From a virus, in IMG/VR virus record IMGVR_UViG_3300030106_008084, positions 1-56,482 of that record: a stretch of 56,482 nucleotides of DNA; one strand, 5' to 3'. Every line of letters starts with the position of its first letter. Positions within the stretch are counted from its first letter, which is position 1. The translations under genes and the position numbers were made by a program. Shown piece by piece: positions 35,273-52,502 of the stretch. The notes under the pieces were generated by a model. The model had not been told where the DNA came from. It did not search any database and was given only the letters and a program-made list of their open reading frames with translations.

Positions 35273-35950
35273 TTAGAATTGAGGAGTAAAACTACCTGCG
35301 CCGAAAGAACCTGCAAATCCAGGACTGCTTTCATATCCTTCTTCTGGTACATAATCCCTAAATGAGAAAGTAACTGTTTTTTCTGTAAAGGGTGCGTCGG
35401 GGTCTTGTGTGACAGTAAAACCTTCTACGTTTGTCGGAAATGCTTCAATAAATTTATAACCTTTCCGTTTATTACCTTGGTTGTCATACTGTTGAACTAA
35501 AATATCTGCTCTTAAACCAAAGTTAACTAATCCATCTACACTTAATGCTACACTCCATGGAGTAAAAAGATTATGAACGATATCATCTATGGTCTCTATA
35601 AAATTAATAGCTAATGTTCTAGTTAAGAAACTCTCTCTTTGTTGTAACCCATACCCAGGCATAAATCCACCTCTATTATTTTGACCTGCTTCTAAAAATG
35701 TAGATTGCTCGTTTGGTATGGTAACCTGTCGTGCAGCTAAAAGATTCTTATCTGCACCACCTCCACTTGAAAAAGGCGGACCTACTGCCCATGTCTTTTG
35801 ACTTTGTAACTTAGCAGTAGCATTATTAATAGCGCCAGTTAACTCTCCTATATTAACAAATTGAACTGACCAAAGAAAGGGAAGTGAAAGATAATAACTT
35901 CCGTCTTCAGCAAATGAGTCTAAAAATTCTCCTGTAGGTACTATAGGCAC
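35273..35950 (-). CDS. Tail-tube-like protein (gp19/gp54 superfamily, 225 aa)
   Basis: GTG start at 35950, fixed by ACTAAATA 6 nt upstream. The layout is a beta-rich N-terminus (SLPFLWSVQFVNIG), VTIPNEQSTFLEAG, the strand SFLTRTLAINFIET and the late strand KTVTFSFRDYVPE, which is the order of gp19-type tube proteins. Somewhat longer than gp19. It directly follows gp19, so a tube initiator in the position of T4 gp54 is a good guess. Confidence 0.55.
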   Translation of the reverse strand: MPIVPTGEFLDSFAEDGSYYLSLPFLWSVQFVNIGELTGAINNATAKLQSQKTWAVGPPFSSGGGADKNLLAARQVTIPNEQSTFLEAGQNNRGGFMPGYGLQQRESFLTRTLAINFIETIDDIVHNLFTPWSVALSVDGLVNFGLRADILVQQYDNQGNKRKGYKFIEAFPTNVEGFTVTQDPDAPFTEKTVTFSFRDYVPEEGYESSPGFAGSFGAGSFTPQF

Positions 35951-35956
35951 TACTAA

Positions 35957-35964
35957 TATTTAGT
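35957..35964 (-). promoter_or_regulatory. Late-type promoter element
   Basis: ACTAAATA, 6 nt before the GTG at 35950. Confidence 0.55.
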
Positions 35965-35977
35965 AGTAAAACTTGCT

Positions 35978-36517
35978 TTAACTAAAGTCTTCGTAGTAAT
36001 GATATGAGAAAGTTACGGGAAATGTAACTACTTCACCGGTACCATCTGCTATGGCATAACTCATATCTCCTATCTCTCTTATAGATGCCCCGATAAGAGT
36101 AATTTGCTTTGTTACATTAAGATCTTTTGTTAGTAGGCTTAAAACTATACGGTCTTGTGGCCCGGGCATACCGTATTGACCTGAACTAGTCTGGTCATCA
36201 AATACTGCTCTAGAAGCTTGCTCAAGTTTATCTCTTATATCATTATTTGCATCTGCATAAAACTCTACTGAATAAGCTGCTGAATTATTATAAGTTGCTC
36301 TTCCTGGAACATTAAAAGTTAACCCCATATAATTAACTTCCTTATTATCAATCGTTCTACCAGGTAATGAAGCCGTCCTAGCATAAATTAAATCATCCTG
36401 ACCTTGTAGATCTACGCTAGTTGAACCTAAAGTGATTTCTTGAATCCTAAAGAGAAAATCTCTTGAGAATTGTTTATCAGCTGCGGCTGCAAAAAAGTTT
36501 TGAATTGTCGTTGCCAT
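35978..36517 (-). CDS. 19: Tail tube protein gp19
   Basis: 179 residues, near the T4 length. FSRDFLFRIQEI, LIYARTASLPGRTIDNKEVN, FNVPGRATYNNSAAYSVEFY and the ending VTFPVTFSYHYYEDFS are the family signature. Polymerises into the inner tube within the contractile sheath. Its own late promoter overlaps the gp18 stop codon, which allows high, independent expression. Confidence 0.92.
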   Translation of the reverse strand: MATTIQNFFAAAADKQFSRDFLFRIQEITLGSTSVDLQGQDDLIYARTASLPGRTIDNKEVNYMGLTFNVPGRATYNNSAAYSVEFYADANNDIRDKLEQASRAVFDDQTSSGQYGMPGPQDRIVLSLLTKDLNVTKQITLIGASIREIGDMSYAIADGTGEVVTFPVTFSYHYYEDFS

Positions 36518-36522
36518 ATAAT

Positions 36523-36530
36523 TATTTATT
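36523..36530 (-). promoter_or_regulatory. Late-type promoter element for gp19
   Basis: AATAAATA, 5 nt before the ATG at 36517, overlapping the TAA of gp18 (36529-36531). Confidence 0.7.
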
Positions 36531-38955
36531 AACTAACTGCTGAACCCTCGTATAAAAGACCAGGTCCGTCAACTATTTCTTGGAAATTAGCATCTGTTCT
36601 AGTCGCGTAGAAGGTAATTAAGATAAACTCTGCAGTTCTGACCGGCTTCAGGTAAATGTCAACCCTAAGCTTATTTTCATCAATAACTTGCGGAGTATTG
36701 TTTCTTTCATCGCATACAATCAAGTAGTCATAAACTCCTTGGTTTTGTTTAGCCCTCTCAAAAATCGGTGTTAAGACGTTAACTAGTCTCGTTCTAGTGA
36801 ACTCTGTATTAGGTTCAAATACGAAGAACTGAGCTGCTTTCTTAGTAGGTCTTTCTAATGCTAAGAACAACCTTCTAACATTAATTCTATCGAATGCACT
36901 TGGTTTCTTCTGTAAGGTCTTCTGTCCAAATATAACATTACCCTGTGATGGGAAGAATGCTACTGGGTTAATAGCTGACTTATACAACTCATCTCTTTGC
37001 TTCTGATTCGGATTAATTGCAATATCAGTTGCAGTTGTAAGTAAACCTCTGTTAAATCCTGCTGGCGCAAACCATGGGAACGTTGCAGCGTCACTCTTAG
37101 CCATAGTAGCTGCAGCATATCCTGAGAACGGAACCCATACAAGCTCACCTAATCCCTGGTCATATGTTTGTGCCCAGTTACCATATACTGTAGCATAAGA
37201 AGTGTTCTGTGAAGAGAACTGATGCTTCATTGGCCAGAATACATCCGTTGAGAAGTTTCTAGTCTTATCATCTAATATTCTTGTATTACCATTTCCAATA
37301 GCTACGATCTGTCTAAATGTATCAGCAATAAATATTGCATCTCCTCTTGTTCCTCCAAGATATGGTGGCTTAACAAACGTTTCAAACTTATCAAAGATAG
37401 TATTATAATTACTTCTAAGAGTTAAGCCGCCTCCTGCTAAGTTGCCCGAAGTTCTTAGTGCTTTAACTGCTGTTGCAGTTGTGCCACCGTAGTAGAATTC
37501 ATCATAATATAATGGAGCTCCACCGGCGATTCCTCTAGATTTAGCCATTGCCCAGATGGTACCTAAACCAGCTTCAGGAATAACATCAATATCGTAAATT
37601 TCATCGTTTTTAATACCGTCTAATGCTCTATCAAGTTTAGTTGGAATATCACCTAGATCTTTATTAGTAACTTTAGTATTAGAATAAGCACCTAGTGGGA
37701 ATAATTTACCAGCATAGCCTAGTTCACTTTCTAGTCTAGTAAACTGTGAACTAGTAGCAAATCCTATAGTGTCAAAATCGTCCCCATTCGGATCTGCTGT
37801 TAGCAGCGCATCGCTTAGTACTCTTATTCTTAACTTCGGATTATTATTATCATTTAAATTATCATCACCAGTGTTACGCTGTGTAATATTTTCGTTTACT
37901 AATACCTTTACATTACGTGATTTAGCATCTTGATTGCCAATAAAGTAATTAAGTTGTCTTCCACCCTTTTGATCATCAATCTTACGGAAAGCATTGACAG
38001 ATCCTACTAATTTATCTTCTAAATTATAGCCAAGCTGAAATGCTTGAGCAGCGTTTTGAGTTCTTCTTAATTTAAATACACCCATGCTTAATACATCAGC
38101 ACTATCTCTACCTTCTAAGTCATAATCTACTAAGTTTTCCATTACCTGTGAAAGACTACCATCAGGACCTGTAGTAGCTTTAGCTGAAAGAGGAAAATCT
38201 AAAGTACTATCATTTAATATAGTATATGCATTTTGTTTAAAAGCAGAAGCGGTAATAGTTGCCGTGCTTCTTAATCCAACAAAATTATTAGCTGGGTTAA
38301 TATCAGCATTATCAATTAGACCTATGTAATAACCTTCGTAATTTTGATTAATTGTACTTGTTGACTTGTTTAATATAACAAGAGGTGAATTACCCATTCT
38401 AGTATTTCTTTGAGCAACTGTACCACTTGTAATTGAACTCTTGTCTAAACCGGAAACATCACCCCATTCAAATAATGTACCATCAACAGCGCTAAGATAT
38501 TGTGCTTCAGTTAATTCTACATGAGTAGGTTGTCCAATAACAATTGTTCCTCCAGAAGCAACAGTACTGTAAGTAGCTGCGAGAGCTTGACCATTAGCTC
38601 CACCATAATCAGATAGAGCTGATCCGGCATAAACTAATGCAGAATATTGTGAACCAAATCCATCACCATTACCAGCTCCATATGGCAATCTACTCGTGTA
38701 GAGATTTGCTGGTGAGTTTAAAACTTCTTTTGCAGTATGGTAAAAGTATCTTTCTGCAGAGTTAGTAGGTGGTCCATAAATTTGATCTAAATCTTGCTGA
38801 GTAGTAATTAATATTACTTCATCATAAGGTCCTTGAGCAGCAAAACCCGTAACATACACATTTGTACCTACGTTCGGTAAAGCTATATTCGAAAGATCCC
38901 ATTCTCTTATTTCAACACCCGGTGAAGCTATCGTTGGAGTAAAGTCTATTGCCAT
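36529..38955 (-). CDS. 18: Contractile tail sheath protein gp18
   Basis: 808 residues. SPGVEIREWDLSNIALPNVG and VYVTGFAAQGPYDEVILITT at the N-terminus and the C-terminal sheath core (GQKTLQKKPSAFDRINVRRL, IVDGPGLLYEG) are typical of T4-like sheaths. The variable middle carries the surface domains. The sheath contracts to drive the tube into the host. GATAAATA lies 5 nt before the ATG. Preceded by a tube-like gene, followed by gp19. Confidence 0.95.
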   Translation of the reverse strand: MAIDFTPTIASPGVEIREWDLSNIALPNVGTNVYVTGFAAQGPYDEVILITTQQDLDQIYGPPTNSAERYFYHTAKEVLNSPANLYTSRLPYGAGNGDGFGSQYSALVYAGSALSDYGGANGQALAATYSTVASGGTIVIGQPTHVELTEAQYLSAVDGTLFEWGDVSGLDKSSITSGTVAQRNTRMGNSPLVILNKSTSTINQNYEGYYIGLIDNADINPANNFVGLRSTATITASAFKQNAYTILNDSTLDFPLSAKATTGPDGSLSQVMENLVDYDLEGRDSADVLSMGVFKLRRTQNAAQAFQLGYNLEDKLVGSVNAFRKIDDQKGGRQLNYFIGNQDAKSRNVKVLVNENITQRNTGDDNLNDNNNPKLRIRVLSDALLTADPNGDDFDTIGFATSSQFTRLESELGYAGKLFPLGAYSNTKVTNKDLGDIPTKLDRALDGIKNDEIYDIDVIPEAGLGTIWAMAKSRGIAGGAPLYYDEFYYGGTTATAVKALRTSGNLAGGGLTLRSNYNTIFDKFETFVKPPYLGGTRGDAIFIADTFRQIVAIGNGNTRILDDKTRNFSTDVFWPMKHQFSSQNTSYATVYGNWAQTYDQGLGELVWVPFSGYAAATMAKSDAATFPWFAPAGFNRGLLTTATDIAINPNQKQRDELYKSAINPVAFFPSQGNVIFGQKTLQKKPSAFDRINVRRLFLALERPTKKAAQFFVFEPNTEFTRTRLVNVLTPIFERAKQNQGVYDYLIVCDERNNTPQVIDENKLRVDIYLKPVRTAEFILITFYATRTDANFQEIVDGPGLLYEGSAVS

Positions 38956-38960
38956 AAAAT

Positions 38961-38968
38961 TATTTATC
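38961..38968 (-). promoter_or_regulatory. Late-type promoter element for gp18
   Basis: GATAAATA, 5 nt before the ATG at 38955. Confidence 0.7.
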
Positions 38969-38987
38969 CTATCTCAGTAAAAAATAT

Positions 38988-39572
38988 TCAAAAATCGATA
39001 ATTTCTGTATGTAACTGTGAATAAACAAATGTAAATCCAGATTGAATCTCTTCTGGATTTTGATAGTTATATGTAATTGCTTCTAGAGTTGTAGGAAAGG
39101 CCTTTTTATAGGTGAATTTTATCTTATTATTGTTAAATTCGTCTTTACCATATATTGAAAGATCAGTTTGATATTCTGAAAAATCCGGATCTGATGGTAA
39201 TTCTCTTTCATTATAGCGACCTTCGTACTGACTATGAAGTAAATTTAACCATTGATATATAACCCAGTAGTTTCTATACTGATTGTCTATGTTAAATGAA
39301 ACTGTTACTGGAGGATAAGAATTTTTAGAATGAGAAGATACATATAAAGTGCTTCCAGCAAATCTATTTTCTACAGCAGGTACAGTAATCTCTGGTACTG
39401 CAGTGCCAAAAATAGAAAATTGAACGGAGTCGCTAATTAAACTTTTATTATCATCTTCTGCTATCCAAGGCTTGTTTATATTTTTTAACACAGGTGGTAT
39501 ATCAAATACTAAAAGAAACTTATCAGCTCTTGATTTGTTTAAAACTGCCTGTTTTAATTTATTAGTTGCCAT
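38988..39572 (-). CDS. Tail-tube-like protein (gp19 superfamily, 194 aa)
   Basis: Order of elements as in gp19: RADKFLLVFDIPPVL, then VQFSIFGTAVPEITVPAVEN, the strand PPVTVSFNIDNQYRNYWVIY, and a final IQSGFTFVYSQLHTEIIDF. It is distinct from gp19 in sequence and lies between terminase and sheath. It could cap the tail (terminator) or be a special tube ring. Homology is by pattern. Late element 6 nt upstream overlaps the terminase stop. Confidence 0.6.
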   Translation of the reverse strand: MATNKLKQAVLNKSRADKFLLVFDIPPVLKNINKPWIAEDDNKSLISDSVQFSIFGTAVPEITVPAVENRFAGSTLYVSSHSKNSYPPVTVSFNIDNQYRNYWVIYQWLNLLHSQYEGRYNERELPSDPDFSEYQTDLSIYGKDEFNNNKIKFTYKKAFPTTLEAITYNYQNPEEIQSGFTFVYSQLHTEIIDF

Positions 39573-45247: not shown

Positions 45248-46924
45248 CTATCCAACAGATATTTTTAAATCTGTACCATCTCTCCATACAATTCCTGCTA
45301 CAGAAGGATCGCTTGTTGGTAAAGCCCCAGCACTTAAATATAAACACTTAGCATGTAACGTATCTGCAGCTACTGTATCGATATCACTTCCTACAACAGA
45401 AGAACCACTGTGTAATACTTGGTTGTTTTTACCTCCTGCGATAAAGCTAAAACACTGACCACCGCAATGGATGCTGTTACTCTTACCACCTACAATAGCA
45501 CTATAACACCCTGATCCTAAAATACAATTTGACTCTCCTCCACCTACAAATCCATGTGTATTGGATAAGCAATTGTCTTCGCCACCCGCTATAGTTGCAT
45601 AGCAAACAGTACTCTCATTACCACATCCGCCTCCAATGAAAGAATCACTTGCATTTGACTGTATGCAATTTGATCTGCCTCCAACTACTGAACTATAATT
45701 AGCACTACCTAATACGTAGTTAGCTTGACCACCGACGATAGTTGAATATGTAGTAGTTACACAGCTACAAAAACCGCCTACAAGAACGCTACAATGACCC
45801 TGCACGCTGTTAGCTGTACCGCTTCCTACAAAGCCATGATTGCTATTGCATAGACTGTTTTGTTGTCCGCCTACAATAGTACCTAGATTGGAACTATTAA
45901 TAGTATTACTAACTCCTCCTCCAATGAATGCACAATTAGCTGTAGCAGTATTATTACTACCGCCGACAACTACCGAACATCCATTAGCGGTGCAATTATT
46001 TTCTCCACCTCCAATAAAACTTCTACTTCCTGTAGCACAGTTACTACGTCCTCCAACAATAGCTCCACCTAAGTTGGTTACCCTATTGCCATCGCCTCCA
46101 CCTACAAATGAACTTAATCCACAGGCAAGGTTATTAAGTCCTCCAACAACAATATCATAATCTTTTTCTGCCTGGTTAAAGCAACCGCCTCCTATAAAGG
46201 AATAGCAACCATGTGTTACGTTACATCGGCCAGATGTTATACTTGAATGATCACCTAACGTACGACTACTTAGACCAGCACCTAAAAAGGAATAATCGCT
46301 TATAGCACTTAAATTAGTTCCTCCCGCTACTGCACTATACGTGCCATGAATACCATTTTGGTATCCTCCAGCTATAGTTGAGCAACTACCACATGTCATT
46401 ACATTATGACTACCACCACCAATAGCTGCCACAGGTGAACTACAATTAAGGTTGTTGTCTGCACCACCAGCTATGGTGGTATTAACGCTTCTCGACATGT
46501 TAAATCTACCTCCGCCAATCACACTTCTGTCACATGTTTGAAAATTGCATACTCCACCTCCTATTACATTATGCGATCCATTACAAATTGAATGCTTACA
46601 GCCTCCTCCTACACTGTTTAGTACAGCGGTACACGCGATAGTAACTTCACATCCGATAACCAAATTAGATGTACCACTTAATTGACCAACAACTGTTACT
46701 CCAGACTGAAAACATTGACTACAATTAAAATAATTAATTTTATTTGGTGAGGCTAGCGGTGTAACTGCTCCAGTTGTAACAGCGCCAGATAGATATCCTG
46801 CGATTGAAGAAAGCGATGATCTAGAAGTTACAGCACTACCTCGAGGGTCTTGCACCAACGCTACTAATTCATCACCATCGTACTCATTTCCCTCTACGGG
46901 AAGCTCAGAAATCTTAATCGCCAT
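45248..46924 (-). CDS. Tail fibre with Cys-rich GGG..N beta-solenoid repeats (558 aa)
   Basis: N-terminal module MAIKISELPVEGNEYDGDEL is typical of fibre attachment domains in marine phages. From about residue 85 to 515 runs a repeat of roughly 16-17 residues of the form SxIGGGxxNxxxxxxx, about 25 copies, probably a trimeric beta-solenoid shaft like YadA-type heads. About 30 Cys residues sit mostly in the positions flanking the GG turn. The C-terminus LPTSDPSVAGIVWRDGTDLK is a cap I recognise from similar fibres. AATAAATA lies 5 nt upstream. Confidence 0.8.
   Translation of the reverse strand: MAIKISELPVEGNEYDGDELVALVQDPRGSAVTSRSSLSSIAGYLSGAVTTGAVTPLASPNKINYFNCSQCFQSGVTVVGQLSGTSNLVIGCEVTIACTAVLNSVGGGCKHSICNGSHNVIGGGVCNFQTCDRSVIGGGRFNMSRSVNTTIAGGADNNLNCSSPVAAIGGGSHNVMTCGSCSTIAGGYQNGIHGTYSAVAGGTNLSAISDYSFLGAGLSSRTLGDHSSITSGRCNVTHGCYSFIGGGCFNQAEKDYDIVVGGLNNLACGLSSFVGGGDGNRVTNLGGAIVGGRSNCATGSRSFIGGGENNCTANGCSVVVGGSNNTATANCAFIGGGVSNTINSSNLGTIVGGQQNSLCNSNHGFVGSGTANSVQGHCSVLVGGFCSCVTTTYSTIVGGQANYVLGSANYSSVVGGRSNCIQSNASDSFIGGGCGNESTVCYATIAGGEDNCLSNTHGFVGGGESNCILGSGCYSAIVGGKSNSIHCGGQCFSFIAGGKNNQVLHSGSSVVGSDIDTVAADTLHAKCLYLSAGALPTSDPSVAGIVWRDGTDLKISVG
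45380..46672 (-). repeat. Degenerate protein-level repeat array (GGG..N units)
   Basis: About 25 degenerate units of 48-51 nt encoding xIGGGxxN-type turns. Codons vary between units, so the array is conserved in protein more than in DNA. Confidence 0.8.
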
Positions 46925-47587: not shown

Positions 47588-48295
47588 GTGAAAATTTTAT
47601 TCGACGAAGCGTCTCATACCTATACTCATAAAGATACAAAAGAACAATTTACTTCCGTTACTACTTTTCTTGGAAGATATAAACCTCCATTTGATTCTGA
47701 TAAGCATGCTACTAGAGTAGCTAAGCGTGAAGGTGTAAGTAAAGAGTTAGTTCTAGAGATGTGGGAAGAAGAAAAGAATAGAGCTTGTGAAAGAGGTACT
47801 AATATTCATAAGCTATTAGAGGATTATATTGAGTATGGTGAGATAGAAGATACTTATGGTTGGTTGTATAAATCATATGATAAAGCTGTTGAACGTACAA
47901 TAGATCCTTTCGATAATGTACTATGCGAGAACTTACTTTATAACGAAGAGATTAAGATTGCTGGTACTGCTGATTTAATTTACGAGCATAAGGATGATAC
48001 CTTTACTATTGGTGATTTTAAAACTAATAAAAGATTTAGATTTAGTTCACAATATAAAGAGAGAATGAATCCACCTGTAGATCATTTTGATTATTGTGAG
48101 TTTAATACATACGCGTTACAACTCTCTTTCTATGCTTGGCTTTATGAAAGAGCGACAGGTAAAAAATGCCGCAAGTGTGTTATATTTTATTTGAAAGAAG
48201 ATAGATTTTTATCTTATCATGTAAATTATCTTAAGTCAGATATTTATAATATTATTAGTACAGCTAATTTAGGTAGTGATTGGATGGATGTTTAA
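47588..48295 (+). CDS. PD-(D/E)XK (RecB-like) nuclease
   Basis: 235 residues, GTG start. Motifs in order: RGTNIHKLLEDY (70-81, RecB-type His), AGTADLIYEH (125-134) with the first acidic ligand, IGDFKTNK (141-148) with D143 and K145, and YALQLSFYAWLYE, the Q-xxx-Y helix. This is the RecB/Cas4-type nuclease core. In phages such proteins serve in recombination, host DNA degradation or repair. TATAAT at 47574-47579 is 8 nt upstream without the AGGAACT box. Confidence 0.85.
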   Translation: MKILFDEASHTYTHKDTKEQFTSVTTFLGRYKPPFDSDKHATRVAKREGVSKELVLEMWEEEKNRACERGTNIHKLLEDYIEYGEIEDTYGWLYKSYDKAVERTIDPFDNVLCENLLYNEEIKIAGTADLIYEHKDDTFTIGDFKTNKRFRFSSQYKERMNPPVDHFDYCEFNTYALQLSFYAWLYERATGKKCRKCVIFYLKEDRFLSYHVNYLKSDIYNIISTANLGSDWMDV

Positions 48296-48915
48296 GTAGC
48301 AAGTAAAGCGTTACAGAAATCCCAGTTTACTATCTCAAAATAATTTTCAAGCCATTCACCTCTCTTTGGACCATACATTAGGTAGTAGCTATGCTCCCAG
48401 ACATCTACACCTAATACTGGCTTACCTAAATTAAACATAAGCGGATTATCTTGATTTGGAGTTCTTACTAAATCAAGTCTATCATCTTTCTCTACTAACC
48501 AACCCCATCCGGAGCCAAATTGACCTTTTGCATTCTCTATAAACTCTTTTTTAAATTTATTAAATGTACCAAACCTCTTTACTATTCTATCTTTTATTTC
48601 TCCGTTAAAGTTACTTCCTCCAGGTGTCATCATGTTAAAAAACAATTGATGGTTATAAGCACCGCCGGCGTTATCTTTTATATGATCATTATACTTTTTT
48701 ATATCTTTAACCAGCTCAACTAACGGTGGCTTTCTCCTACTACTCATAGCTGCATTTAGCTTTTTAACATATCCTTTATAATGGTCATTGTAATGAAAAT
48801 CAGTAGTTTGTCTATTTACTACAGGCTCTAAAGCGCTAAGAGAATAAGGAAGCTTAATAGGTTTATAAGTATTAACCTTTTCTAAAAGTAAATCTACTTG
48901 ATTTAAAAACTTCAT
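48292..48915 (-). CDS. sodA: Superoxide dismutase, Mn-type of the Fe/Mn family
   Basis: 207 residues. Metal ligands H41 (DFHYNDHYKGYV), H89 (AYNHQLFF), D171 and H175 (VDVWEHSYYL) are all present, as is the FGSGWGWLV core. GG at 84-85 before the NH and Q155 in PNQDNPL are Mn-type marks; Fe enzymes usually have Gln at the former site and Ala at the latter. Converts superoxide to oxygen and hydrogen peroxide in the cytoplasm. ATTAAATA lies 6 nt upstream, so it is probably a late gene protecting the infected cell. Rare cargo in phages. Confidence 0.92.
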   Translation of the reverse strand: MKFLNQVDLLLEKVNTYKPIKLPYSLSALEPVVNRQTTDFHYNDHYKGYVKKLNAAMSSRRKPPLVELVKDIKKYNDHIKDNAGGAYNHQLFFNMMTPGGSNFNGEIKDRIVKRFGTFNKFKKEFIENAKGQFGSGWGWLVEKDDRLDLVRTPNQDNPLMFNLGKPVLGVDVWEHSYYLMYGPKRGEWLENYFEIVNWDFCNALLAT

Positions 48916-48921
48916 TTACTA

Positions 48922-48929
48922 TATTTAAT
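48922..48929 (-). promoter_or_regulatory. Late-type promoter element for SOD
   Basis: ATTAAATA, 6 nt before the ATG at 48915, back-to-back with the plus-strand element at 48931. Confidence 0.65.
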
Positions 48930-48930
48930 A

Positions 48931-48938
48931 AATAAATA
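48931..48938 (+). promoter_or_regulatory. Late-type promoter element
   Basis: AATAAATA, 5 nt before the ATG at 48944. Two divergent promoters fit in the 28 bp between starts. Confidence 0.65.
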
Positions 48939-48943
48939 GCAAT

Positions 48944-49147
48944 ATGACACGGAGTGCTCTTCTAAAAAAATTTGATAAAGAAACTGAAAACCTTTGGGAT
49001 CAATTATATAAAATTAAAGACTTACTTGAAAGCGCTGAGGATTATGAGCTTTCTGAGCTAGGAGGAAAATTTTTAGATCAAATAGCTGAAGGAATAGAAG
49101 ATGGAGATATATCCTTAGAAGATATTAGAGATCAAATATCTGGTTGA
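48944..49147 (+). CDS. Small acidic helical protein (67 aa)
   Basis: MTRSALLKKFDKETENLWDQ, then LGGKFLDQIAEGIEDGDISL; acidic, probably two or three helices. Family not recognised. It has a textbook late promoter 5 nt upstream and lies divergent to SOD. Confidence 0.65.
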   Translation: MTRSALLKKFDKETENLWDQLYKIKDLLESAEDYELSELGGKFLDQIAEGIEDGDISLEDIRDQISG

Positions 49148-49179: not shown

Positions 49180-50220
49180 ATGCGTATAGAGACAGAGCTA
49201 AAGTACGATTTTGATGATGTTCTTATTCGACCTAAAAGGTCGACGCTGACGTCACGAAAAGAGGTTGATTTAACTAGAACGTTTAGATTTAAATACGGTG
49301 GTTCGTATCACGGTATACCAGTTATGGCTGCTAATATGGACGGTGTTGGTACATTAGAGGTAGGAAGAACCTTGAGTGACTTAGATCTCTTTACTTGTTA
49401 CAAGAAAGACATTGATGAAAAGGAGCTTATTGAAGAGCTTAAAGATAATAAAGGTAAGCATGTAGCTGTAACTGTAGGTAGGAATGAGTATGATTATGAG
49501 AGGTTAGCTCGTATTAATAAGAAAGCTCCAGTCCGTAATATTTGTATTGATGTAGCGAATGGTTATACTCAAGCGCTTGTTGACTTTGTAAAGGTAGTAA
49601 GAAGAACGTTTCCTCAAAGGACAATTATAGCGGGTAATGTTGTAACAGGTGAAATGGTTGAAGAGCTACTCTTAGCAGGAGCAGATATTATTAAAGTTGG
49701 TATTGGATCAGGAAGCGTTTGTACTACACGGCTAAAGACTGGAGTTGGTTATCCTCAGTTTAGTTGCATTGCCGAATGTGCTGATGCTGCTCATGGATTA
49801 GATGGTCATATTATTGCTGATGGAGGATGTACTACGCCAGGTGATGTAGCTAAAGCATTTGGTGCTGGAGCTGATTTTGTAATGCTTGGATCGATGTTAG
49901 CTGGTTCGACAGAAGGTGGTGGAGAAAAAATTACTATCGATGATAAAGAGTATGTAGAATTCTATGGAATGAGTAGTAAGAAGGCTAACGAAAAACATAA
50001 CGGTGGTCTTAAAGATTACAGAACGTCAGAGGGACGTAGAGTAGTTCTTCCATATAAAGGACCTATGCGTTATATTGTTCAAGATATTTTAGGAGGTATT
50101 AGAAGTACATGTACGTATGTTGGAGCTGCTAAGCTAAAGCATTTAAGTAAATGCGCTACGTTTGTTAGATGTACTAAAACGCATAGTAAGATATATGAAC
50201 CTAATACCTTAGAGATTTAA
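49180..50220 (+). CDS. guaC: GMP reductase
   Basis: 346 residues, essentially the length of E. coli GuaC and alignable along its whole length: MRIETELKYDFDDVLIRPKR, CIDVANGYTQALVDF, AGNVVTGEMVEELLLAGADI, KVGIGSGSVCTTRLKTGVGY with catalytic C181, and IADGGCTTPGDVAKAFGAGA. The lack of CBS domains and this close match favour GMP reductase over IMP dehydrogenase. It converts GMP to IMP with NADPH, moving guanine nucleotides toward adenine. The RmlD-like gene follows after 1 nt. Confidence 0.92.
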   Translation: MRIETELKYDFDDVLIRPKRSTLTSRKEVDLTRTFRFKYGGSYHGIPVMAANMDGVGTLEVGRTLSDLDLFTCYKKDIDEKELIEELKDNKGKHVAVTVGRNEYDYERLARINKKAPVRNICIDVANGYTQALVDFVKVVRRTFPQRTIIAGNVVTGEMVEELLLAGADIIKVGIGSGSVCTTRLKTGVGYPQFSCIAECADAAHGLDGHIIADGGCTTPGDVAKAFGAGADFVMLGSMLAGSTEGGGEKITIDDKEYVEFYGMSSKKANEKHNGGLKDYRTSEGRRVVLPYKGPMRYIVQDILGGIRSTCTYVGAAKLKHLSKCATFVRCTKTHSKIYEPNTLEI

Positions 50221-50221
50221 T

Positions 50222-51088
50222 ATGAGTAAAAAAATTGTAATACTTGGAAATGGATATGTCGGAGGTAATCTATACGATAGGTTACTTTATAATGAAAAAA
50301 AGCCCTATGATGTTAATATTGAAAAGAGAAAGCTCTTAAACTATAATGATATAAAAAATTTAGAAATATATCTAGATAACGAAAAACCAGATTATGTTAT
50401 AAACTGCTCAGGATTTACTGGAAGGCCTAATGTAGATGAAGGCGAGCTTAAAAAAGAGCTTTGCTTTGAACTGAATACATTTGGACCGCTAAGGGTAAGT
50501 AACCTATGCAAGACAAAGAACATTAACTATATTCATATTTCATCTGGGTGCATTTATACTGGGTATGATAAGTGTTGGGAAGAAGATGATGAACCTAATT
50601 TTGGTTTATTTAATGAAGAATCTTCTACATATTCTAAAAGCAAACATGCATTTGAATTAGGTTGTGATTGGGGTTTAATATTGAGAGTAAGGATGCCATT
50701 TTGTGATATTCTCCATGATAGATCTTTCATTACAAAGATATATAAGTATGATAATCTAATTGATAGAGTTAACTCCAAGACATATATTCCACAACTTCTT
50801 GATTTTATAGAGCATTTTATTAGCAAAGGTTATGAAGCTAAAGAAAAAGATATCTTAAACTTTGTTAACCCCGAAGCTTTATCAACAGCAAGAGTAACTC
50901 AACTAATGGAGAAGTATGACGTATCAAATCCAGACTGGGAATGGGTTCACTTTTGCGATCTTAATACTACAGCTAACAGATCTAACTGTGTAATGTCGAC
51001 TGATAAGCTAGAAAACGAATATGGTTACGAAATGTGGACAGAAGAAGTTGCACTTGAGAGTGCGCTGACTAATATAATAAGTGTATGA
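50222..51088 (+). CDS. NAD(P)-dependent sugar reductase/epimerase, RmlD-like
   Basis: 288 residues, short-chain dehydrogenase fold: KIVILGNGYVGGNL (4-17) binds the dinucleotide, YVINCSGFTG follows strand 4, HISSGCIY carries the catalytic Ser region and YSKSKHAFE the YxxxK pair. Such enzymes reduce or epimerise nucleotide-linked deoxysugars. ATGA overlap with the next gene. Exact product unknown; RmlD-type dTDP-4-keto reductase is the best guess since RmlB lies in the same operon. Confidence 0.8.
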   Translation: MSKKIVILGNGYVGGNLYDRLLYNEKKPYDVNIEKRKLLNYNDIKNLEIYLDNEKPDYVINCSGFTGRPNVDEGELKKELCFELNTFGPLRVSNLCKTKNINYIHISSGCIYTGYDKCWEEDDEPNFGLFNEESSTYSKSKHAFELGCDWGLILRVRMPFCDILHDRSFITKIYKYDNLIDRVNSKTYIPQLLDFIEHFISKGYEAKEKDILNFVNPEALSTARVTQLMEKYDVSNPDWEWVHFCDLNTTANRSNCVMSTDKLENEYGYEMWTEEVALESALTNIISV

Positions 51089-51528
51089 GTAAAGAAGTTT
51101 TAGGATTCACTGCGGGTAACTTTGATTTGTTACATCCAGGTTATATAAAATGCTTTAGAGAAGCTAAGAGGCATTGCGATAGGTTCATCGTGTTCTTACA
51201 ACGCGATCCTTCTCTTCATAGAAAAAGTAAATACAAGCCTGTTATTCCATTATTTGATAGGTATGAAGCTTTAATGTCAATCAAATATATTGACGATGTC
51301 TATTGTTATCAAACAGAACAAGAGTTGTATGATCTAATTAAGTTCTTTAAACCTGACATTAGAATTCTAGGAGAAGATTATATCACTAAAGAGTCATTTA
51401 CAGGAGATGATTTGCCACCAGAAATTATCTATACTACTCGTTCTCATGGATGGTCTACTACTAAACTTAAAGATTTAATTACTGCACAGACTGTTAAGCA
51501 GAATCCTGAGACATACAAAAAGATATGA
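51085..51528 (+). CDS. Cytidylyltransferase-like protein
   Basis: 147 residues of the nucleotidyltransferase alpha/beta-phosphodiesterase superfamily: LGFTAGNFDLLHPGYIKCF holds the HxGH box as HPGY (17-20), with Tyr in place of the second His, and RSHGWSTTKLKD (near 120-131) is the C-terminal RTxGISTT-type motif. Relatives make CDP-glycerol or activate sugars with CTP/ATP. The Tyr replacement could lower or change activity. Coupled to both neighbours by ATGA overlaps. Confidence 0.8.
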   Translation: MSKEVLGFTAGNFDLLHPGYIKCFREAKRHCDRFIVFLQRDPSLHRKSKYKPVIPLFDRYEALMSIKYIDDVYCYQTEQELYDLIKFFKPDIRILGEDYITKESFTGDDLPPEIIYTTRSHGWSTTKLKDLITAQTVKQNPETYKKI

Positions 51529-52502
51529 GTACATATGTTGTTACAGGAGGTTGTGGTTTTATAGGGTCATACGTTATACAAGAGCTTCTTAAGAGTAAAG
51601 ATAAAAAGCTCTTTATATATAATATTGATAAGATGGGTGTAGGTTCATCTGAAGAAAATGTTATTGACGATAAGCGAGTACAAAATCACTTTATTGATAT
51701 CTCTAATGATGAGCATTGGAGACTTCATATGGCTAACCCTTTAGACTTTATTGACAAGGATGTTGATTATGTTATACATTTAGCTGCAGAGTCTCATGTT
51801 GATAGATCTATAGATAATCCTCTATCTTTTGCCTATTCTAACTTAATCGGCACTGCTAAAGTTTTAGAATTAGTACGCAAGCATAGCGCTAGACTTGTTC
51901 ATGTATCTACTGATGAAGTGTATGGTCATTTAGGAGAGAAGGACCCTCCGTTCTCCGAAGATAGTCCTCTAGCTCCACGCTCACCTTATTCTTCTACAAA
52001 AGCAGGGTCAGATCTCTTAGTTCAATCATACATAACTACTTTCGGTATTGATGCGTCAATAACTAGATGCTGTAATAATTTTGGACCTAGACAAGGAGAT
52101 GAGAAACTAATACCAACCGTAATAAGATCTATAATACAAGGAAATAAAGTACCGGTATATGGAACAGGAAAGAATATTCGCGAATGGATTCATGCAGAAG
52201 ATCATGCTAAAGCTATTATAGAAGTATTGCATGATGATGTACCTGCTACTGTTTATAACATTCCAGGTAACGTTGTATGTAATAATTTAGATCTAATTAA
52301 AAAGGTAATAAAAGAGATTGAGCATCAGTTTCCATCATACAAGAGAAAAAAGAGTGATTATATGGAGCTTGTACCAGATAGAAAAGGACATGATTTTAAG
52401 TATCAACTTAGTACTAAGCATAATTTATCTGCAGTAAAGAAGCAGAAGAAGTTTAATCTATCTCAGACTGTTAAGTATTACGTTAACAAGTATAGATCTT
52501 AA
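51525..52502 (+). CDS. rmlB: dTDP-glucose 4,6-dehydratase, RmlB-like
   Basis: 325 residues. TGGCGFIGS (7-15) is the NAD site; VIHLAAESHVDRSIDNP, the catalytic T129-D130-E131 (VSTDEVYG), Y155-K159 (YSSTKA) and NNFGPRQ are RmlB hallmarks. It turns dTDP-glucose into dTDP-4-keto-6-deoxyglucose, feeding deoxysugar synthesis. Last gene of the four-gene cassette starting with GMP reductase. The stop overlaps that of the minus-strand gene by 4 nt. Confidence 0.88.
   Translation: MSTYVVTGGCGFIGSYVIQELLKSKDKKLFIYNIDKMGVGSSEENVIDDKRVQNHFIDISNDEHWRLHMANPLDFIDKDVDYVIHLAAESHVDRSIDNPLSFAYSNLIGTAKVLELVRKHSARLVHVSTDEVYGHLGEKDPPFSEDSPLAPRSPYSSTKAGSDLLVQSYITTFGIDASITRCCNNFGPRQGDEKLIPTVIRSIIQGNKVPVYGTGKNIREWIHAEDHAKAIIEVLHDDVPATVYNIPGNVVCNNLDLIKKVIKEIEHQFPSYKRKKSDYMELVPDRKGHDFKYQLSTKHNLSAVKKQKKFNLSQTVKYYVNKYRS

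Follow-up and report, generated by a model that had tools for sequence, protein, structure and literature searches.

A gene for superoxide dismutase (SOD) in an uncultured T4-like marine myovirus raises the question of where the enzyme came from, which metal it uses and where in the infection it would act. The gene lies in a stretch of 56,482 nucleotides (IMG/VR record IMGVR_UViG_3300030106_008084), which is called the window below. Phage SOD genes as such are already known; new here are the phage-only clade, the accessory gain and loss of the gene, its capsid, exonuclease and fusion contexts, and the [L/I]xE N-terminus of the viral SODs.

An intact accessory gene in a T4-like phage

The window was recognized as a phage fragment by its T4-type TerL, sheath and tail-tube genes, baseplate hub, gp14-like gene and gp44-like clamp loader. 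No near relative was found among 50,697 phage records, and phage isolates are distant from it (TerL ~36–39%, MCP ~32–34%). Several other features of the record and its relatives were observed. Three separate proteins of the tail-tube family (phrog_45) surround the single sheath gene (35273–39572, minus strand). The region 45248–46924 (minus strand) encodes a Cys-/Gly-rich repeat protein of the IGGGxxN type, a candidate tail or surface fibre and by far the most variable protein of the neighbourhood, with 30–47% identity in most relatives. At 49180–52502 (plus strand), an IMP dehydrogenase/GMP reductase-like gene (phrog_9582) is followed by ORFs that by eye resemble sugar-nucleotide epimerases and a nucleotidyltransferase, an order that is conserved in relatives. 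One-piece tmRNA genes with unusual tag peptides (Rfam RF00023, 132–134 bits) are present in the two long relatives G007 (L213:15777–16193, minus strand) and G005 (L231:4252–4661, minus strand).

As the original prediction had proposed, the locus (Table 1) holds an intact, phage-encoded SOD: the ORF is exact, the record contains phage genes, and both Pfam domains score above their cut-offs (Sod_Fe_N, E=1.4e-19, 70.7 bits vs 27; Sod_Fe_C, E=8.1e-33, 113 bits vs 20.9). The gene is an Fe/Mn-family SOD (SodFM) with a complete four-ligand site (H41, H89, D171, H175). In NCBIfam, SodA [Mn] ranks above SodB [Fe], both under their equivalog cut-offs, while PHROGs has no SOD family matching it. The solved structures nearest by sequence are Mn-type SODs, among them that of C. 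difficile (3tjt; phmmer, 1.1e-50). An AlphaFold (AF2) model with a mean pLDDT of 73, poor in residues 1–41, gave dimeric Mn or cambialistic SODs as best Foldseek matches (TM 0.79–0.82), and the enzyme is probably dimeric.

Table 1. Features of the SOD locus (window coordinates) and late ORFs of relatives (contig coordinates)
Feature	Position	Strand	Remarks
Superoxide dismutase CDS	48292..48915	-	207 aa, ATG start, complete ORF, SodFM1/Mn-type signature
Gateway and second-sphere residues of the SOD			H45, Y49, Q155, W173, E174, Y178
Predicted capsid-targeting propeptide MKFLNQVDLLLE, residues 1–12	48880..48915	-	Ends in [L/I]xE; predicted from sequence
Late promoter TTAAATA	48922..48928	-	13 nt upstream of SOD ATG
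Overlapping divergent late-type motifs, ATAAATA x2	48928..48938	+	For the 67-aa ORF
Conserved 67-aa ORF	48944..49147	+	Far side of SOD insertion site
PD-(D/E)XK exonuclease (phrog_298)	47588..48295	+	Convergent with SOD, 3' ends overlap 4 nt
Late ORF, candidate head protein	L227:5515-6210	+	SOD-like or T4-internal-protein-like N-terminus
Late ORF, candidate head protein	L219:13933-14397	+	As above
Late ORF, candidate head protein	L213:17625-18281	-	As above
Late ORF, candidate head protein	L214:1891-2700	-	As above
Late ORF, candidate head protein	L231:7819-8136	-	As above

The metal ligands are invariant in the 76 aligned viral SODs, H45, W137, Q155, W173, E174 and Y178 are identical in 76/76, and Y49 is kept in 75/76. 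Purifying selection on the viral SODs is strong, with a median dN/dS of 0.054 over 26 usable pairs, in many of which the synonymous distances are saturated. The enzyme is very likely catalytically active. Many viruses fuse SOD to an uncharacterised C-terminal domain, and on that ground the fold might be supposed to have lost its catalytic function and to serve only structure or metal binding. A purely structural role, however, would need none of the unchanged active site, which makes such reuse barely credible.

Relatives of the locus were gathered through a terminase search blind to SOD, and 25 loci, some on contigs that are near copies of each other, cover both the exonuclease gene and the 67-aa ORF. 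SOD lies between the two, on the opposite strand, in 17 of the 25 and is absent from the other 8; it is an accessory gene of these phages. Between L129 and L166, a 616-bp SOD deletion is bordered by flanks identical at 227/228 and 1469/1472 positions (99.6–99.8%), and the promoter and the last SOD codons (TTCTAGCAACTTAG) left behind mark it as a scar of loss. Both contigs also carry an extra ORF between the SOD site and the exonuclease (L129:1737–2470), in the place where SOD itself is found, which by eye is 2-oxoglutarate/Fe(II) oxygenase-like.

The convergent SOD-exonuclease pair was also found in distant phages (L241, L242, L244, L245, L247, L249); elsewhere, too, viral-clade SODs with 51–55% identity converge on this exonuclease gene. 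In L246 and L248, which belong to the window's group (MCP 80–81%; TerL 77% for L246), SOD instead stands directly behind gp21-gp22-gp23, the last being the major capsid gene, with the late promoter present. These varied placements indicate that the gene moves between phages and sites.

Lineage and metal type of the viral enzymes

A quick initial tree, which included few viral sequences, had long branches that left the phage SODs unplaceable. In a tree of 20 viral and 57 cellular rows, all 20 viral SODs group together as a single clade (100/99), inside which no cellular SOD fell among the sampled nearest relatives. The cellular rows comprise about half of the best 80 of 593 genome matches, E. 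coli SodA and SodB, Firmicutes SODs and plasmid-borne proteobacterial SODs, with marine alphaproteobacterial and gammaproteobacterial genomes poorly sampled. The viral SODs are a lineage known so far only from phages, and one viral clade without cellular members among the sampled relatives points to a phage lineage and not to a fresh capture from a host.

The nearest cellular SODs, in a single pattern-limited scan of genome contigs, are Bacteroidota-like (40–46% identity). A Bacteroidota-like donor was considered and set aside, as the tree keeps the viral SODs apart; for the same reason no donor can be named, and the phylogenetic search for one suggested by the original prediction ended in a clade of the viruses' own. 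Promoter motifs also speak against a Bacteroidota host: TATAAT is enriched upstream of the non-late genes, and the Bacteroidota motif TAnnTTTG is not.

An auxiliary metabolic gene recently taken from a bacterial host, a mere supplement to the host SOD, would agree with the closest cellular sequences being ordinary bacterial SODs at that identity and with the host-type SODs seen in other phages or prophage-like records, such as the freshwater contig L193, whose SOD groups with a Sinorhizobium SOD. The window SOD, however, does not nest among host sequences in this tree, in which about half of the best 80 of 593 matches are included and marine alpha- and gammaproteobacteria are poorly sampled. 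Its pairing with the exonuclease is moreover common to phages with just 51–55% SOD identity, and the early-promoter type misfits the Bacteroidota, home of the nearest cellular SODs; we therefore consider recent capture very improbable. As a separate observation, unannotated 'phage' records such as OR844989.1 and OR846594.1 seem to be contaminating host DNA, as the SODs in them are of the ordinary bacterial type; counting SODs in the phage collection that includes them is therefore misleading.

The Mn-preferring SodFM1 enzymes are marked by a C-terminal Gln combined with a Gly at the second position ahead of the Asp ligand (G-D-2), although these residues do not always determine metal preference (PMC10172142, in which no virus or phage is mentioned). 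Both are found in the window SOD. The water-coordinating C-terminal Gln is Q155, present in 76/76 viral SODs, and the D-2 position, Gly or Ala in SodFM1, is G169, with Gly in 71/76; G-D-2 also occurs in 73/80 near cellular SODs (the best 80 of 593 genome matches). A residue check of the alignment found no SodFM2-type N-terminal Gln in the viral SODs, and Gly84-Gly85 precede Ala-Tyr-Asn88-His89 in the window SOD. The Mn-type second-sphere signature read earlier from the sequence thus stands, and the enzyme probably prefers Mn; since the Gln/Gly rule has exceptions, Mn use can be called likely at most.

The outcome that the original prediction named as speaking against it, a tree with the enzyme inside the Fe-SODs, was not obtained, as the Fe-type SodFM2 forms a separate clade (100/98) without viral rows. 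A sister grouping of virus and SodFM2, however, was rejected by neither AU test (p=0.746 with fewer viral rows, p=0.373 with more), and the tree alone leaves the metal type undecided. An Fe-preferring or cambialistic enzyme behind Mn-like residues would fit that grouping and the known exceptions to the residue rule. Against it stand the invariant C-terminal Gln, the prevalence of Gly at D-2, the missing SodFM2-type Gln and the exclusion of viral rows from the SodFM2 clade, and we regard it as improbable. The further idea that avoiding iron would suit an iron-poor sea was not borne out: the signature is also found in fused viral SODs that seem non-marine, as inferred from sample identifiers, and in most Bacteroidota SODs, which argues for inheritance and not for marine adaptation.

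Late promoter, N-terminal piece and possible packaging

The late promoter proposed earlier is supported by its context. In the window, [AT]TAAATA stands upstream of 18/27 starts of late or structural genes, with a spacing that is nearly always 8–16 nt and mostly 12–16 nt, versus 1/14 other starts, and lies within 35 nt of 21/45 ORFs of at least 100 aa versus 1.0 expected from the motif density. The relatives G005 and G007 gave comparable results (51/169 and 52/205 ORFs vs 3.8 and 4.1 expected). The motif before SOD is kept in the 16 inspected window-type relatives with the usual arrangement and was found at the SOD start in at least three placements (window, L246 and L248). The corresponding motif of T4 and cyanophages is TATAAATA/NATAAATA (PMC2984593). 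A homologue of the late sigma factor gp55 is encoded by G005 and G007 (E ~1e-7), the window itself being a fragment, and with the motif at its start and late sigma in its phage group the SOD gene is of the T4 late type. In T4, roughly one helical turn separates the late box from the transcription start site (PMC2988020), so transcription of these genes should start at the ATG or beside it. Late motifs lie near start codons in the window, G005 and G007 alike, and their late transcripts should accordingly have little or no leader; a Shine-Dalgarno-like match was seen at only ~5% of genes.

The window SOD begins MKFLNQVDLLLE-KVNTYKPIK-LPY, where LPY opens the SOD fold, and a cut after residue 12 would leave 9 residues before LPY. 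The motif [L/I]xE occurs in the N-terminal piece of 22/25 stand-alone viral SODs, and in 9/10 divergent representatives it occupies residues 10–12 (shuffle mean 0.23). The predicted cut leaves 8–10 residues before LPY in 15/16 viral SODs, a remainder that resembles the starts of cellular SODs, such as MSYTLPS-LPY in E. coli SodA. Leu11-Glu12 is kept while neighbouring residues vary, among viral SODs only ~50% identical overall.

In T4, gp21 cleaves behind L/I-X-E, and IPIII needs no more than its first 10 residues to be targeted (PMC9026906). The window SOD has such a short N-terminal piece with a terminal L/I-X-E, a motif that is short and weak alone, and its phage group has a gp21-type prohead protease and a scaffold (L246, G005, G007); gp21 is 80–82% and gp22 70–72% identical between L246 and the long relatives, both genes lying outside the window fragment. 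The conserved piece thus suggests, as a prediction, that the enzyme is packaged in the head. Particle carriage had been one of two options in the original prediction; it gains from the propeptide-like N-terminus, the [L/I]xE sites and the fact that SOD follows the gene of the major capsid protein in some relatives, and it stays a prediction.

Under this proposal, SOD would have a gp55-type promoter of its own that is used late, and its product would be a precursor in which the first ~12 residues would act as a capsid-targeting sequence. The precursor would enter the prohead core during head assembly, be cut after Leu-Leu-Glu12 by the phage's gp21-type prohead protease and be packaged in mature form together with the DNA. 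In the head or after injection it would remove superoxide that would otherwise harm the genome, the newly infected cell or the phage's Fe-S or radical enzymes. We infer cleavage, packaging and injection as we do Mn use, activity and benefit. That SOD is packaged in the head seems to us, from the sequences, about evenly balanced, and the same holds for the whole account of an intact, Mn-preferring SOD of a phage lineage, made late, targeted by a propeptide, cleaved by gp21 and packaged.

Several results temper this reading. The three-residue motif can also be found within the folded parts of these viral SODs, and it is present somewhere in 15/68 cellular SOD N-termini, whose starts were assigned mechanically. 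A looser N-terminal pattern was not clearly enriched in G005 and G007 (12/126 late ORFs vs 27/537 others). The SOD gene is also dispensable, as its absence from 8/25 loci shows, which we count against packaging. Some late ORFs of the relatives have SOD-like (MKFDDLVKRIIEEN, MQFDELVQRLLKEN) or T4-internal-protein-like (LLAEAY, FLAEAY, LLSEAY) N-termini and are candidate head proteins (Table 1).

An active Mn-type SOD made late could instead stay in the cytoplasm, unpackaged, and shield the dying cell from superoxide. Ribonucleotide reductase, Fe-S enzymes and DNA during packaging would be its protected targets, and the N-terminal extension would serve solubility, dimer contacts or nothing. Such a role, which we hold to be a real possibility though short of an even chance, would be served equally by the late promoter and fits the class I ribonucleotide reductase (nrdA/nrdB) encoded by phage relatives; the protease-like motif is short enough to have a chance or structural origin. 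It leaves aside, however, that the extension retains Leu11-Glu12 amid varying neighbours, that fused forms hold the same type of site at an equal distance from the fold and also in their linker, and that some relatives have SOD just behind the capsid gene.

Fused forms, known systems and meaning

The SODs fused to a C-terminal domain of 270–290 aa make up a large virus-only family (e.g., L252:5062–6555, L273:5980–7422, L020:4890–6533 and ~50 more loci); in L020 the fused gene has an SNF2-type helicase gene on one side and a head-tail adaptor gene on the other. In the C-terminal domain, G-x-D ... QxK is invariant, a pattern similar to that of PD-(D/E)XK nucleases; the domain has no match in Pfam or PHROG and none convincing in PDB. 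Kinship with the window exonuclease was considered and rejected (hhalign probability 0.1%, no detectable relation), so fusion does not explain the SOD-exonuclease neighbourhood. In 46/64 fused viral SODs, [L/I]xE (LITE-M) lies exactly 8 residues before LPY, while 16/64 apparently start MKKIGIE without it, if the starts are right. In the linker, which is modelled with low confidence, the invariant E227 and E237 (L252 numbering) both end an [L/I/V/M]xE in 19/19 fused SODs. More tentatively, and with slightly less than even confidence, we suggest that T4-like phages of the ocean and other waters maintain a virus-only SOD that would be loaded into the head by its propeptide, trimmed by the prohead protease and delivered with the DNA, with a second, abundant branch in which the precursor would bear a protease-separable, nuclease-like domain (PD-(D/E)XK-type motif).

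Parts of this arrangement are known elsewhere. With SodFM1 enzymes (E. coli SodA, S. aureus SodA) the viral SODs share the fold, the four ligands, the C-terminal water-binding Gln and Gly at D-2, at 38–46% identity and with the viral clade apart; unlike them, the viral SOD has the N-terminal [L/I]xE piece and a phage late promoter. The T4 internal proteins IPI–IPIII and Alt are likewise products of late genes, accessory and variable among relatives (PMC9026906, PMC3012670). The internal proteins carry an N-terminal piece of 10–20 residues ending in L/I-X-E, against about 12 in the viral SOD, and gp21 and gp22 are present in the window's phage group as in T4. The T4 proteins, however, are not SODs, and targeting and cleavage are shown for them but predicted for the viral SOD. 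The chlorovirus PBCV-1 expresses its Cu/Zn SOD A245R late and carries the enzyme in its virions (PMC7019647). Like the window SOD, A245R is a late viral SOD present in some relatives and missing from others, but it is an unrelated enzyme of a eukaryotic algal virus, and packaging, shown there, is predicted here.

The PA5oct group and Vibrio phage 2.275.O also encode Fe/Mn-SOD relatives, at 25–30% identity and in different phage groups, with the active-site residues around His89 and Gln155 altered in the alignment. The record of the distant PA5oct homologue bears the note 'ESI-MS/MS', which we take to mean virion proteomics. Metagenomic viral SODs, likewise of the Fe/Mn family, have been described as auxiliary metabolic genes thought to buffer reactive oxygen (PMC12542629), in a study that treats SOD in passing and in which we found no analysis of its lineage, its promoter, fusions or packaging.

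A pair of phages that are almost identical but differ in having SOD (L166 and L129), together with the short propeptide, offers a directly testable system. If the packaging account is true, redox defence would join restriction inhibitors and Alt among the functions that abundant T4-like phages of aquatic habitats inject into their hosts, and superoxide, early in infection or during storage of the particle in sunlit water, would be costly enough for the enzyme to be retained.
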